From contig JACERO010000073.1 in assembly GCA_013911135.1 (NCBI GenBank), positions 1 to 58,148 on the forward strand: a DNA stretch of 58,148 nt, read 5' to 3'. Numbering within the stretch: the first letter of the stretch is position 1; every line of letters starts with the position of its first letter. Of this stretch, positions 31,907 to 39,350 are shown piece by piece. Both the position numbers and the translations under genes were made by a program. This DNA comes from Candidatus Nitrosopumilus sp. Lineage in GTDB: Archaea; Thermoproteota; Nitrososphaeria; Nitrososphaerales; Nitrosopumilaceae. The notes under the pieces are model-generated. The model was not told the origin of the DNA and ran no database searches. It saw only the letters and a program-made list of their open reading frames with translations.

Positions 31907-32194
31907 ATGGCTGAATATAGAATTCATATGAAAATTATTGGAGATATTCTAGCAACAACTAGAGATGATCTACAAGATGAAAATGGAGCATCAGTAACAT
32001 ATCTAATTAGAAAAGCAAACATATCTCATTCTAGAATTTCAAGAATCTTAAAAACTCTAGTATCACAAGGGCTCTTAGAACAAGTAGATACTAAAGGTTC
32101 AAACAAATATAGAATTAGCCAATCAGGTAGAGAATTTCTTCAAGCATATTATACATTTACAAACTTTGCAGATGATTTTGGATTAAGTATCTAA
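31907..32194 (+). CDS. Winged-helix transcription regulator (HTH_45-like)
   Basis: 95 residues with a helix-turn-helix (LIRKANISHSRISRILKTLV) and wing (VDTKGSNKYRISQSGREFLQ). It is a paralogue of the protein at 39069 (shared xSHSRxSxxLxxL and a common FGLxx end). Probably a DNA-binding dimer. The perfect inverted repeat just upstream suggests autoregulation. Confidence 0.85.
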   Translation: MAEYRIHMKIIGDILATTRDDLQDENGASVTYLIRKANISHSRISRILKTLVSQGLLEQVDTKGSNKYRISQSGREFLQAYYTFTNFADDFGLSI

Positions 32195-32318: not shown

Positions 32319-32945
32319 ATGATAATTAAACAAAAAAGAATAGAATGGATATTGAAAGTAAATTGTGATAAAGAAGGAATTGAAAAAGCATCTCAAATTA
32401 TCAATCAAGGAGGAATTGCCGTGTTTCCAACAGATACAGTATATGGAATAGGATGTAATCCATACAACAAAGATTCAGTAAAGAAAATTTATGAGATTAA
32501 ATCTAGAGATATTTCAAAACCATTTCCAGTTTTAGTTTATTCAAAGGAGATTGCAGAAAGAATTGCTTTTTTTGATGAGTTTACTAAAAAAATTGTGGAA
32601 AAATTTTGGCCAGGAACACTAACAATAATTCTAAAGTTAACTGATGCAGAGTTAAAAAAATCATTAAACATAACTGATAAAATTGCTGTAAGAGTTCCTG
32701 ATCATAAATGCACGTTAGAATTATTGAAGAAGTGTAATTTTCTAGTAGGTACTAGTGCAAATATTTCTGGACATTCGTCATTTACAAATCCTGATGAATG
32801 TTTCAACAATATTCAAAAATATGATATTTTTGTTGATGGAGGGATAATTACTAGCAAAACAGAATCAACCATAATTGAAATAGAAAATGAGGAGATCAAA
32901 ATTATTCGAGAAGGTTCTTTGAGTTATGAGGAGATTTCAGGATAA
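32319..32945 (+). CDS. sua5: Threonylcarbamoyl-AMP synthase (Sua5/YrdC)
   Basis: 208 residues of YrdC fold, with GGIAVFPTDTVYGIGCNP, the KSRDISKPFPVLV loop and VGTSANISG. It makes threonylcarbamoyl-AMP, the substrate for t6A37 in ANN-reading tRNAs. The C-terminal Sua5 extension is missing, as in YrdC. The KEOPS-type gene at 33458 probably serves the next step. The stop overlaps the start of the THUMP gene by 1 nt. Confidence 0.93.
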   Translation: MIIKQKRIEWILKVNCDKEGIEKASQIINQGGIAVFPTDTVYGIGCNPYNKDSVKKIYEIKSRDISKPFPVLVYSKEIAERIAFFDEFTKKIVEKFWPGTLTIILKLTDAELKKSLNITDKIAVRVPDHKCTLELLKKCNFLVGTSANISGHSSFTNPDECFNNIQKYDIFVDGGIITSKTESTIIEIENEEIKIIREGSLSYEEISG

Positions 32946-33466
32946 TGAATTTGATAATTACTTGTGCAAGGCATTTTGAACCTGAAACTGAGGAAGAATT
33001 AAAAGATATTTTAGGAGAATTGGGAGATTCTGATGCAAAAATCTCAATAACAAAAATGTCAGGGATTTTGACTGCCGAAACAAAGCTAGAACCAATAGAA
33101 ATTGTAAGGAAAATCAAAGAAATGCTTCTTGATGAACCTTGGAGTATTAGATATTGTTTAAGAATAATTCCAATTCAAAAAGTAATTGAAACAAAAATGG
33201 AAGAGATAACAAAAGCTGTTACAGAGATATCCGAACAAATTTCTAATGATGAAACATATAGAATATCCATAGAAAAAAGAAGTTCAGATTTATCTAGTAA
33301 AGAAATTATTACAAAAATTGCAAGTAGTATAAAAAATAAAGTATCACTTGAATTTCCTGACAAAGTAATCTTAATTGAGATTTTGGGTAATAAAACAGGA
33401 ATTTCTATATTAAAAAAAGTAGATATACTAAGTGTTGAAAAAACTAAACGTAGTATCTCAGAGTAA
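32945..33466 (+). CDS. THUMP-domain protein
   Basis: 173 residues. The N-terminus NLIITCARHFEPETEEELKD and the later TYRISIEKRSSDLSSKEIIT are characteristic of THUMP domains, which bind tRNA ends. No catalytic domain is attached, so it may be a Tan1-like adaptor, as needed for ac4C formation in eukaryotes. It is translationally coupled to sua5. Confidence 0.82.
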   Translation: MNLIITCARHFEPETEEELKDILGELGDSDAKISITKMSGILTAETKLEPIEIVRKIKEMLLDEPWSIRYCLRIIPIQKVIETKMEEITKAVTEISEQISNDETYRISIEKRSSDLSSKEIITKIASSIKNKVSLEFPDKVILIEILGNKTGISILKKVDILSVEKTKRSISE

Positions 33467-34231
33467 AATTGCTGCCTTTTCTACTAAAATATCTTCCAAA
33501 GGATTATTTGAATAAACTGAATCAAGTAGTTTTTTTGTAATTTTAAAATATTTTTTGAGAAATAAATCATTATTTTTTGAAAACAGATTTACTGATAATG
33601 GTGATAATTCCAGATATAATGAATTTAATATTTTTTTATTTCCTATTGCAATTAAAATAAAATTAGTTTTTGGTTTTATTCCTACATGTATAATTGCATT
33701 AGAAATTTGATTTGTCAACGCAAAACGCATCAGAATATCAGTTTCAAGTTTATTGGAAAGTAAAATATTATTTTTTTCAGATTCTAAAGATAAAGATATG
33801 ATTTTTTTTAAATGATAAGTATTCATAATAAAATTACTTGACACAGCCTGAAGTTGAATTTTTGGATATTTTCTTCTTAAATTATCAAGGAATTTTACAT
33901 TAATTGTTTTTTGACCTATGATTTCAATTATTTGAATTTGTTTTTTTAAGACTTGAAAATTAAGTTTTTTGGGAGAGCCACCGTGAATTACAGGTATAAT
34001 GCTCACAAGATCATTATTCTTTATCTTAGTAGATTTTCCTTCCATTGCAGAAGAATCAGCTCCATTTATTGCAATCAAGATATTTTTAGTATCCAAATCA
34101 GGAGTGTTGTCAGGTTTTAATTCTAACAATAAATCCATTAATTCTTGAATGGAGATATCAGATTTATCAATCTGTAATTGTTCTGTTGAAAAAGATCTTT
34201 TTGCTCCACCAACAAATTTTACAGTAATCAT
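33458..34231 (-). CDS. Ubiquitin-like (MoaD/ThiS) domain fused to Cgi121-like domain
   Basis: 257 residues. Residues 1-88 look like a beta-grasp MoaD/ThiS/Urm1-like domain (MITVKFVGGAKRSF start, NDLVSIIPVIHGG end, Gly-Gly at 84-85). Residues about 95-215 resemble Cgi121, a KEOPS subunit (QLQAVSSNFIMNTYHLKKII, LETDILMRFALTNQISNAII, VGIKP). KEOPS completes t6A in tRNA. In a free ubiquitin-like protein the Gly-Gly would be the C-terminus; here it is followed by the Cgi121 part. It converges on the THUMP gene. Confidence 0.75.
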   Translation of the reverse strand: MITVKFVGGAKRSFSTEQLQIDKSDISIQELMDLLLELKPDNTPDLDTKNILIAINGADSSAMEGKSTKIKNNDLVSIIPVIHGGSPKKLNFQVLKKQIQIIEIIGQKTINVKFLDNLRRKYPKIQLQAVSSNFIMNTYHLKKIISLSLESEKNNILLSNKLETDILMRFALTNQISNAIIHVGIKPKTNFILIAIGNKKILNSLYLELSPLSVNLFSKNNDLFLKKYFKITKKLLDSVYSNNPLEDILVEKAAILL

Positions 34232-34272: not shown

Positions 34273-34668
34273 TTATTCAGTTTTCTCTTCGGTAGTTTCA
34301 GTTTTTTCTTCTACAGGAGTTGTTTCTACAACTGTTTCAGCAGAAGTTTCTTTAGACACTGTGGTTGATTCAGATGTTTCTGGTTGAATTTCTTTCTCAA
34401 TTGTTTCTTCGGATTGTGAAGCTGCGATTTGTGCTTGTTTGGCTTTTTCTTCACGGATCTCTTTTTTGATAAATCTAGTGATATAACCTGATATTTTGTT
34501 TTTTAGGCTTTTAGAACGTATGATACTAATTTCATCTAAAACTTTTTTGTTATTGGCAAAATCTTCGCCAAACTTTGATTTATGTTCGTCTAGAACCTCA
34601 TATGAGATACGCTTTATTCTATCCACTCCTCGCTTAATGAATTGGGGTATTTTATACCTATATTCCAA
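34273..34668 (-). CDS. rps17e: 30S ribosomal protein S17e with long acidic tail
   Basis: 131 residues. The first 75 match S17e (DEHKSKFGEDFANNKKVLDE and SKSLKNKISGYITRFIKKEI). Most archaeal S17e end there. Here about 55 extra residues rich in Glu, Thr and Val follow (EEKTETTEEKTE at the end). It overlaps the TatD gene by 11 nt on the same strand. Confidence 0.88.
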   Translation of the reverse strand: MEYRYKIPQFIKRGVDRIKRISYEVLDEHKSKFGEDFANNKKVLDEISIIRSKSLKNKISGYITRFIKKEIREEKAKQAQIAASQSEETIEKEIQPETSESTTVSKETSAETVVETTPVEEKTETTEEKTE

Positions 34669-35413
34669 GAAATGATTTTGAATTGTTTTCTAGCAAAGAT
34701 GCCATCTCATCAAACGTTTTTCCTAGAATTTTTGAAGCACAAAAAATAACACTAGGAATAAAGCTAATTTGTGCAGATTTCATTTCAAAACATCTAGAAA
34801 ATCTTACAGGTCCATCAGTTTCAACAAGAATTTTTGATTCATCTGTTTTAGATAGTAAAGTTTGCTTATCATTTGCATAAACCATTACAGGGCCATATGA
34901 CACAAAAAATCCCATATCCAGAGCTTTTTGAAGTTGTTTTTTATTTCCATCAAACCAATGAAGTAAAGCGTGTTTAGTGTTATAAGATGTCATTATTTGC
35001 AAAACATTATCAATGCTTTTTCGTGAATGAATAGAAACTGGTTTGTTAAATTTTTCTGCAAACGATAATAATGTTTCAAATACATGCATTTGTCTTTTAG
35101 AATCTTCATCACTGTTAACAAAAGTTGGATCTAATCCTATTTCTCCTATTCCAGAAAGATTTTGATGATTCTCTTCGATCATATTTGTCATTTGCTCAAG
35201 TTCATCATTTGCACATTCAGGATGAATTCCAATGAAAGGTAAAACTAAATTATTTGTTTTTGCTAGTTTTAAAGTTTGTAAAGAATTTTCATTATCCATT
35301 GAAACACAACATGCTTTAATTTTTAGATATTCCATTCCCGTTAAGATAAATTGCATATCAGAAGAATACGCAGAATCAGACAAATGTATATGAGAATCAA
35401 AATACCATGTCAT
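34658..35413 (-). CDS. tatD: TatD-family metal-dependent hydrolase
   Basis: 251 residues with the metal-binding motifs DSHIHLSDSAYS (HxH), GIGEIGLDPTF (Glu), PVSIHSRKS, HALLHWFDG and LVETDGPVRF (Asp). TatD proteins are Mg2+-dependent DNases/deoxyribonucleases with possible repair or RNA quality roles. Near-normal length. Same strand as S17e, upstream of it. Confidence 0.9.
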   Translation of the reverse strand: MTWYFDSHIHLSDSAYSSDMQFILTGMEYLKIKACCVSMDNENSLQTLKLAKTNNLVLPFIGIHPECANDELEQMTNMIEENHQNLSGIGEIGLDPTFVNSDEDSKRQMHVFETLLSFAEKFNKPVSIHSRKSIDNVLQIMTSYNTKHALLHWFDGNKKQLQKALDMGFFVSYGPVMVYANDKQTLLSKTDESKILVETDGPVRFSRCFEMKSAQISFIPSVIFCASKILGKTFDEMASLLENNSKSFLGI

Positions 35414-35770: not shown

Positions 35771-35842
35771 GGTACTCTGGCAGAACGGTTATGCGTGGGC
35801 CTGCAAAGCCTATACAAGGGGGTTCGACTCCCTCGGGTACCT
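35771..35842 (+). tRNA. tRNA-Cys (GCA)
   Basis: The acceptor stem GGTACTC pairs with GGGTACC at the end. The anticodon stem TGGGC/GCCTA encloses CTGCAAA, anticodon GCA. The T-arm AGGGG-GTTCGAC-TCCCT is well formed and the D-stem is short. The discriminator base is T, as usual for tRNA-Cys. No intron and no encoded CCA. Its last base coincides with the stop codon of the convergent cupredoxin gene. Confidence 0.93.
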
Positions 35843-36315: not shown

Positions 36316-38067
36316 ATGTCTCAAAATGGAAATGGGTTATTAGAATACATACCAGGTTCACATACACTACTAGCACAAAAAAATTCTAGTCTTCCTCTAG
36401 AAGGTTTTGCAGAAAATGTTCAAGGAAGCATTCAAGAATATGCTGAAAATGCCAAAAGTGATGTTGAGAAAGGATATAATTTTCTTCAATGGGTGTTAAC
36501 AAGAGTTTTTGAGGCTACTGAAGATGACGCAGCAGATGCAATTGTTGACGGAGCAAACGATCTTGGAATTGATGCATATCTTCCAGTAGATTTTTCAGAC
36601 AATACAATTAGATTATTCCAATCAAAATACGGCACATCACATTCACTAGAAGCAATTGCTAAATTCAAAGAAGATGTTAAACGACTACTTGCAAAAGATG
36701 TTACAAAAATGAGACCTGAACTAGCTCAACTTGTTACAAAAATTAAAGAAAAGAATCTCAAGGTAAAATGTTGTTATGTTACAGATCAGAAAGTAGAATA
36801 TGATGATGAATTTGTTGAGATTATTGATGGTGTAAAAATAATTCAAAAATTATGGGATAGAATTAAAAAACCTGCAGCAGGTAAAAAATCCTCAATTAAA
36901 CTGGAAAGAATGCTAAAACATGAAAATACCATTCTAGGAATTTTGAAGTTACGAGAGATTACAGAATTTGTAAGTAAGAATAAAGATTATGTTTTTGAAT
37001 CAAATATTAGACAATGGATGCAATTCAAGACTACAGTTAACAAAGGATTACGTGAAACATTACAAAATAATCCGGGCAAATTCTTCTATTATAATAATGG
37101 AATTACTATTGTAGTTAGTGACTTTGTAGAGTTAGGAGATAATTTGATTGAGCTTCATGCTCCACAAATTGTCAATGGTGCACAAACATCGAATTCTATT
37201 CTTGATCATTCAAAGCGAACAAAAAACATGGAAGGTTCCATGACAGTTACAATAATCAAGGCAGATGATGAACAAGAACAAAATAATATTACAAAGTATA
37301 GAAATTCTCAAAATTCAGTAAGAGGAAAAGATTTGGTTTCACTGATGGATTTTCACAAATCAATTAAATCACAATTAAAAAATTGTGGTTACTTTTATGA
37401 AATTCAAGCAGGTTCCTTTGATACAAAATCAAAATCAAAACAGTGTGAATATGAAGGGGATGAAATATACAACAATTATCTTCCAGATAACCACAAGAAA
37501 GTCATTGTTGCTAAAGATGCAATTCAGTCACTAGTTGCAGGAATCGAACAAAGACCTACTGAAGCGTATAGTTCACCAGCACAGTTTCTTCCAAGAGGAA
37601 GAAAATATGATGATATATTCAACGACAATCTAAAAGATGATTACAGAATTTTGCTATATCCATATCTTGTCAAAGAATTTGCAAAAAAATCATTAAAGTA
37701 TGGAAAACAAGGAGGTCACAAAACAAAAAGATACGCAACATTATTTTTTGTAGCAGTCTACTTTAGAATACTCCACAAAAAAATTCTTGAATCAAAAGAT
37801 GATTTCAAGGGAGATGTACGAAAACTAGAGCCTATTTTTCGTAGTTTTAAACTTAATTCCAGAATTCTAAAGTTAACAGACGTAATTGTGACTAAATTTT
37901 TGGAAGATACTGTAGTAGATGATGAAATTGACTTGGCCAATACAAAACATAATTTTTTCTCACAACATGTTTGGAATAATACAATGCTTCGTGTAATTGA
38001 TAAGAAAATTAGACATGAAGAAGAAGAGATTTTGGCATTAAAAAAACTAACAAGTAATTTATTTTAA
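36316..38067 (+). CDS. AIPR family protein with nuclease-like N-terminal domain
   Basis: 583 residues. The region around 255-295 carries the AIPR hallmark FFYYNNGITIV and PQIVNGAQTSN (Abi phage-resistance family). Before it, residues 84-104 read GIDAYLPVDF then LFQSKYG, the D-(x)n-QxK pattern of PD-(D/E)xK nucleases. AIPR proteins occur in phage defence and next to restriction-modification systems. Here it stands alone with its own TATA-rich upstream region. Activity is inferred. Confidence 0.83.
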   Translation: MSQNGNGLLEYIPGSHTLLAQKNSSLPLEGFAENVQGSIQEYAENAKSDVEKGYNFLQWVLTRVFEATEDDAADAIVDGANDLGIDAYLPVDFSDNTIRLFQSKYGTSHSLEAIAKFKEDVKRLLAKDVTKMRPELAQLVTKIKEKNLKVKCCYVTDQKVEYDDEFVEIIDGVKIIQKLWDRIKKPAAGKKSSIKLERMLKHENTILGILKLREITEFVSKNKDYVFESNIRQWMQFKTTVNKGLRETLQNNPGKFFYYNNGITIVVSDFVELGDNLIELHAPQIVNGAQTSNSILDHSKRTKNMEGSMTVTIIKADDEQEQNNITKYRNSQNSVRGKDLVSLMDFHKSIKSQLKNCGYFYEIQAGSFDTKSKSKQCEYEGDEIYNNYLPDNHKKVIVAKDAIQSLVAGIEQRPTEAYSSPAQFLPRGRKYDDIFNDNLKDDYRILLYPYLVKEFAKKSLKYGKQGGHKTKRYATLFFVAVYFRILHKKILESKDDFKGDVRKLEPIFRSFKLNSRILKLTDVIVTKFLEDTVVDDEIDLANTKHNFFSQHVWNNTMLRVIDKKIRHEEEEILALKKLTSNLF

Positions 38068-39068: not shown

Positions 39069-39350
39069 ATGGCTTCCTATAGAACCAGTATGCAGATTGT
39101 TGCAGATTTATTGACTGTTACTGAGCAATCAGGACAAGAAGGCATCAAAACAACATCTCTTCTAACAAAGGCTAACTTATCACATTCAAGATTATCTAAA
39201 TTCTTAGAGAATTTGACAGGTGCTGGTCTAATTAATAGAATTGAATTTGATGGTAAGAATACTTTTGTAATTACTGGAAAAGGTAGACAATACTTGGACT
39301 CTTATGTAAAATTCGCAGGTATTGCAGAATCATTTGGATTAGAACTTTAA
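39069..39350 (+). CDS. Winged-helix transcription regulator, second paralogue
   Basis: 93 residues with a helix-turn-helix (LLTKANLSHSRLSKFLENLT) and a wing ending in TGKGRQYLDSY. Clearly paralogous to the protein at 31907. A TTATATC box about 30 nt before the ATG suggests a leaderless transcript. The upstream sequence has an imperfect CTTAGT/ACTAAAG inverted repeat rather than the longer perfect one seen at the other gene. Confidence 0.85.
   Translation: MASYRTSMQIVADLLTVTEQSGQEGIKTTSLLTKANLSHSRLSKFLENLTGAGLINRIEFDGKNTFVITGKGRQYLDSYVKFAGIAESFGLEL

Follow-up and report, generated by a model that had tools for sequence, protein, structure and literature searches.

The 58,148-nucleotide contig of Candidatus Nitrosopumilus sp. 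analysed here (JACERO010000073.1; the window) carries a gene in which a ubiquitin-like (Ubl) domain with an internal Gly-Gly is joined to the KEOPS subunit Cgi121, which raises the question of what such a domain does in front of a tRNA-modification protein. The preliminary description of the locus offered three answers: the module regulates the KEOPS subunit, delivers sulfur to it, or is cleaved from it. The fusion itself is already known. It was reported in 2010 from marine thaumarchaea, Nitrosopumilus maritimus among them, as a feature conserved in every thaumarchaeon available at the time and apparently cotranscribed with S17, and its role was left open (Makarova & Koonin, PMC2948915). Text searches, which covered few subscription journals, found no later study of the Ubl-Cgi121 fusion. 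What is added here is the contrast between fused and unfused forms, the repeated fusion and the pattern of conservation. With natural fused and unfused forms, apparently independent fusions and an invariant Gly-Gly, the role left open since 2010 becomes directly testable.

The fusion gene and its surroundings

The fusion is a single ORF of 257 aa at window positions 33458–34231 (−). The range first put forward, 32319–34231, also takes in the Sua5 and THUMP genes. Residues 1–85 (33977–34231, −) make up an N-terminal beta-grasp domain of the Urm1/ThiS type, with a ThiS match at aa 6–85 [PF02597, 32.9 bits against the Pfam cut-off of 22.5, E=9.6e-8]. The domain closes with the tail motif His83-Gly84-Gly85 (33977–33985, −), after the last residue of which we propose a cleavage site. 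A variable linker, aa 86–98 (33938–33976, −), leads to the Cgi121 domain, which begins at about residue 99 and extends to residue 257 (33461–33937, −). Profile searches for Cgi121 in the C-terminal half, chosen beforehand as the test by which the assignment could fall, matched above cut-off with both PF08617 [CGI-121, aa 116–252, 31.2 bits, Pfam cut-off 25] and the NCBIfam KEOPS Cgi121 model [NF011465, 168 bits, cut-off 40].

An AlphaFold model built on an alignment of 117 sequences has a mean pLDDT of 95.7 and a pTM of 0.70; its sole weak block, aa 81–90 (pLDDT 76), covers the Gly-Gly junction and is part of the evidence, with column entropy, on which the linker was delimited. Foldseek searches of the PDB gave Trypanosoma brucei Urm1 [2k9x, 29% identity] as the best Ubl match for the first part, with Uba4-Urm1 [6yuc] also ranking near the top, and for the second part Bud32-Cgi121 [4ww7], KEOPS [8up5], Cgi121-tRNA [7kjt] and 3enp, with E values down to 6.7e-10. 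Pfam, NCBIfam, AlphaFold and Foldseek are thus concordant on a Ubl module with an internal Gly-Gly (aa 84–85) joined to Cgi121, as the preliminary description had it, and PF02597, the model and Foldseek likewise confirm the beta-grasp fold of the N-terminal half. The assignment of the Ubl to Urm1 in particular is borderline, just short of the curated Pfam cut-off [PF09138, 21.3 against 21.8 bits] and below that of NCBIfam [NF053661 Urm1_like, 24.8 against 70], while its structural neighbours are Urm1s; three of five unfused Ubl relatives scanned pass the PF09138 cut-off. The same single ORF was recovered from many genomes, as 90 non-identical proteins, a recurrence that together with the structure model rules out chance or an annotation artefact, and its presence in closed genomes rules out an assembly error.

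The Cgi121 half seems equipped for its usual task. In Methanocaldococcus jannaschii Cgi121 the contacts to the tRNA 3′ CCA are made by Gln28, Lys56, Met60, Gln71, Ile72, Ile76 and Gly80 (PMC7718258). Mapping by hand on the alignment, in which Phe21 of the M. jannaschii protein could not be placed, shows Q128, Q175, I176, I180 and G184 retained here, each of them conserved in 79 or more of 84 sequences. Two positions differ: Thr stands in place of Met60, and Lys56 aligns with N160, the neighbour of a conserved K161. Since most of the CCA-contact residues are kept, it is likely, to judge from the alignment, that this half retains its KEOPS role.

Directly upstream on the same strand lies ribosomal protein S17e (34273–34668, −; start codon uncertain) [PF00833, 5.7e-21], the ORF of which is overlapped by that of a TatD-family DNase further upstream (34658–35413, −) [PF01026, 8.2e-48]. 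Convergent to the fusion are a stand-alone THUMP-domain protein (32945–33466, +) [PF02926, 4.4e-10], the 3′ end of which overlaps the fusion by 9 bp, and Sua5/TsaC, the threonylcarbamoyl-adenylate synthase of t6A synthesis (32319–32945, +) [PF01300, 3.5e-54; TIGR00057 above cut-off]; both had been named as neighbours from the start. S17e is found upstream on the same strand at 39 of 40 diverse loci from the window's family and at 41 of 46 where the genes are unfused, the THUMP gene at 40/40 and 25/46, and Sua5 at 31/40 and 21/46, the lower counts being minimum values since the flanks were short. Other features of the window include two similar small winged-helix proteins of 93–95 aa, about 7 kb apart (31907–32194 and 39069–39350, +), and a 583-aa ORF (36316–38067, +) which by eye resembles an AIPR-type abortive-infection or restriction-linked protein and lies close to a tRNA-Cys gene (35771–35842).

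Fused and unfused relatives

Families and genera are given here by the f and g codes of the genome search, f1 being the family of the window, f1 g1 Nitrosopumilus and f3, we infer, Nitrososphaeraceae. The preliminary description had proposed that fused and split forms be looked for across the thaumarchaea, and both were found. In the sampled set of genomes, many of them incomplete, the fusion occurs in f1 and in genus g19 of f3, and Ubl and Cgi121 are separate genes in 13 families (f2, f3, f4, f67, f68, f69, f70, f71, f74, f75, f76, f78 and f79). The statement of 2010 that the fusion is universal in Thaumarchaea fails, therefore, for the wider order. Compared with that report (Makarova & Koonin, PMC2948915) we find the same fusion and the same adjacency to S17, but many unfused families, evidence for at least two fusions, and an invariant Gly-Gly.

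Nearly all complete f1 genomes have the fusion. No Ubl-Cgi121 match was found in two genomes of f1 g167 (G592 and G626), though one of them is 91% complete, and either loss or a gap is possible; in a third g167 genome the Ubl is truncated at a contig end (L231). In another f1 genome (G374, g8; L100:1440–1620) a one-base shift directly after the Gly-Gly separates Ubl from Cgi121, which could reflect either a sequencing indel or genuine re-splitting.

Where the genes are unfused they lie on the same strand with the Ubl first, usually less than 100 bp apart and sometimes overlapping, and they are often in frame and separated by only a stop codon. The unfused Ubl ORF ends exactly at Gly-Gly in 32 of 44 cases; the other 12 have tails of 1–6 residues and by analogy look like Ubl precursors that would need trimming. 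In three genomes (L120, L222 and L226) the Ubl lies apart from Cgi121. In family f4 three loci (L115, L118 and L124) specify shortened Cgi121-like proteins with open frames of 150–153 codons, and the adjoining Ubl ends in SHGG; in G334, the one sampled genome of this family, the Cgi121-like protein is below PF08617 detection and the Ubl below ThiS detection. Outside the order a Ubl was found within about 1.5 kb of Cgi121 at only 3 of 30 loci, and directly adjacent to it at two of these, which speaks against a wide spread of the pair in the phylum.

In a tree of 76 concatenated Ubl and Cgi121 rows f1 (100/99) and f3 (100/99) form separate groups, and within f3 the fusions are confined to genus g19 (8 of its 11 rows), adjoining unfused members. 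The fused or unfused state requires five changes on this tree, four of them forced by well-supported branches. As far as these sequences can tell, the fusion would have arisen at least twice. A single origin is unsupported by the tree, which is unrooted, so that one ancient fusion followed by many splits stands as a less economical history. The Gly-Gly was retained after both fusions, in f1 and in f3 g19.

The Gly-Gly tail and the case for cleavage

His-Gly-Gly is unchanged in all 90 non-identical fused proteins. At the positions of both Gly84 and Gly85 these genes use GGT, GGA, GGC and GGG, and since all four codons are in use selection acts on the protein. The residue which follows is far less constrained: Ser in 49 proteins, Ala in 18, Thr and Arg in seven each, Asn in three, Val and Met in two each, and Gly and Lys in one each. 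In an alignment of 85 sequences mean column entropy rises from 0.28 bits over aa 78–85 to 2.26 bits over the linker, aa 86–98, which differs among the fused proteins in both sequence and length. The three columns of the His-Gly-Gly motif have zero entropy, as invariant as G8, N56, D59, S60 and D74 elsewhere in the Ubl of the same alignment. The Gly-Gly is kept in fused proteins down to approximately 30–40% identity with that of the window.

E1 enzymes adenylate Ubls only at a free C-terminus. An invariant Gly-Gly beside a variable linker indicates that selection maintains a Ubl tail which is not activatable while joined to Cgi121, and given the requirement of E1, cleavage at this point makes the most sense. 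We consider it probable that the fusion is a linear precursor which is cut after Gly-Gly to release a free Urm1-like carrier and a free Cgi121. The cut would most likely be made after Gly85 by a JAMM-type protease and would free a Ubl with a C-terminal Gly-Gly. The freed Cgi121 would join Bud32-Kae1-Pcc1 and hold the CCA end of the tRNA, while the E1 homologue would activate the Ubl, which might then pass sulfur to an Ncs6/TtuA-type tRNA thiolase and/or be attached to proteins. One message would in this way give a fixed supply of two tRNA-modification parts. Of the three options first offered for the module, cleavage from the KEOPS subunit is thus favoured, as a prediction, by the invariant Gly-Gly, by unfused Ubls mostly ending there, by at least two apparent fusions and by two JAMM genes; regulation through a permanent tether is less likely, and delivery of sulfur to KEOPS is unlikely.

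The presumed partners are present in the genome. It has two ThiS-type Ubls, both as N-terminal fusions, one to Cgi121 and the other to E1. The second (SAMP1/MoaD-like) stands in front of the E1 (ThiF) on another contig of the same genome (C19; L058:1183–2511, −) and ends in AVAGG-Ser, and an internal AGG-Ser is kept in most f1 genomes checked, so that this fusion may also need processing. In closed f1 genomes the ThiS-type Ubls above cut-off are the one joined to Cgi121 and one joined to E1, the latter ending in AGG or SGG; no free Urm1-type Ubl was found in them above the ThiS cut-off, and one of them (G089) has one further ThiS-type match, below the family cut-off. Two Prok-JAB/JAMM genes of the window's genome, both with an intact HSHP-x6-S-x2-D motif, are on this evidence the most likely candidates for the predicted cut. 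At least two such genes occur in 18 of 19 other f1 genomes checked, the remaining one (G563) having a single copy. Because JAMM genes also occur in genomes with unfused Ubl and Cgi121, they are no specific mark of the fusion, and the Nitrosopumilus proteins fall far short of the NCBIfam desampylase cut-off. An Ncs6/TtuA-type tRNA thiolase is also present, with the TtuA N-terminal zinc domain and a C-terminal domain above the cut-off of TIGR00269. MoaE was not found in the genome, for which reason a role in molybdopterin synthesis is unlikely.

The same observations bear on the other readings. The two domains might stay together as a permanent, uncut tether, the Ubl on Cgi121 regulating KEOPS, linking it to E1, thiolase, proteasome or ribosome, or acting as a docking domain. 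AlphaFold does give a single well-predicted two-domain protein, the conserved company of S17e and Sua5 would suit a role tied to translation, and regulation of KEOPS was what Makarova and Koonin proposed (PMC2948915). Against this, the invariant tail Gly-Gly beside a variable linker in both fusion lineages would be left unexplained, closed f1 genomes would be left without a free Urm1-type Ubl, and the low model confidence at the junction speaks against a rigid two-domain unit; we regard the tether as unlikely, if worth keeping in mind. His-Gly-Gly could also be preserved without any catalytic role, for instance because it forms a turn or binds a partner. Internal translation starts could supply free Cgi121, though never free Ubl.

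A more elaborate version of the cleavage reading, which we put forward as speculation with rather low odds, would have one protease cut set the supply both of the thiolation carrier (position 34 or 54) and of the t6A tRNA-gripping subunit (position 37), while the uncut form would be a state of its own, whether regulated, inactive or E1-recruiting, through which the two modifications are coupled. Cleavage might also be partial or regulated, with the full-length and cut forms both functional and the cutting serving to switch on KEOPS or the Ubl. Residual full-length MoaX is always seen and its cutting may be slow or regulated (PMC4326299), and SAMP1-linked MoaE is inactive until HvJAMM1 cuts (PMC4443979); nevertheless we hold this to be improbable for the present protein. 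That the fusion is an evolutionary leftover, an accidental read-through with a non-functional Ubl and a merely inherited Gly-Gly, hardly deserves credence: fusion would be easy where adjacent genes are so often in frame across a lone stop codon, but the Gly-Gly persists to low identity with all synonymous codons sampled, and the Ubl as a whole is no less conserved than Cgi121 (mean entropy in the 85-sequence alignment 1.27 and 1.49 respectively). Delivery of sulfur by the Ubl to KEOPS itself, giving a thio-derivative of t6A, is suggested by the physical link only and has next to no chance of being correct, since no thiocarboxylate can be carried by a Ubl whose C-terminus is blocked and the t6A that Sua5 and KEOPS make has no sulfur in it, so that we reject it on chemistry. 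The 2-methylthio-t6A that does exist is a product of radical-SAM methylthiotransferases and not of Ubl carriers. The Ncs6/TtuA-type thiolase, encoded elsewhere in the genome, would be the plausible acceptor of the sulfur.

Related systems and other Ubl fusions

In eukaryotes, ubiquitin-ribosomal protein fusions are precursors in which an N-terminal ubiquitin or Ubl precedes a protein connected with translation and is severed from it after Gly-Gly; the carrier belongs to another family, partner and protease differ too, and the likeness is one of analogy only. A comparable fusion is Mycobacterium tuberculosis MoaX, a MoaD-MoaE protein which is cut between Gly82 and Ser83, a step required for its activity (PMC4326299). 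Like MoaX, the protein described here joins an N-terminal beta-grasp sulfur carrier to a partner enzyme subunit, with an internal Gly-Gly often followed by Ser; unlike MoaX, its partner is a KEOPS subunit in a genome without MoaE, and its cut is predicted whereas that of MoaX has been demonstrated. In vitro, HvJAMM1 cuts linear SAMP1-MoaE exactly after the last Gly, and the Gly-Gly is needed in vivo (PMC4443979). In this construct too an archaeal Ubl is fused linearly and a Gly-Gly marks the junction, and JAMM homologues occur in the genome of the window; SAMP1-MoaE, however, was engineered in Haloferax, and the Nitrosopumilus JAMMs are far below the desampylase cut-off.

Wobble thiolation in Haloferax needs SAMP2, UbaA and NcsA (PMC4048286). 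As in that system and in Urm1-Uba4-Ncs6, a Urm1-like Ubl, an E1 homologue and an Ncs6/TtuA homologue are all encoded, but here the carrier is fused to Cgi121, a second, MoaD/SAMP1-like Ubl is fused to the E1, and the thiolation role is a prediction. Should cleavage prove true, marine ammonia oxidisers would make their ThiS-type carriers only as protease-requiring fusions, JAMM proteases would be central to their tRNA modification, and Archaea would possess a parallel to the eukaryotic ubiquitin-ribosomal protein precursors.

A different partner was encountered in one genome of family f73 (G404; L119:537–1394, +), where a Urm1-like Ubl shares one protein with a phosphoribosyltransferase domain [PF00156] and keeps its Gly-Gly. 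The gene lies just upstream of Cgi121 and is possibly another Ubl precursor fusion.
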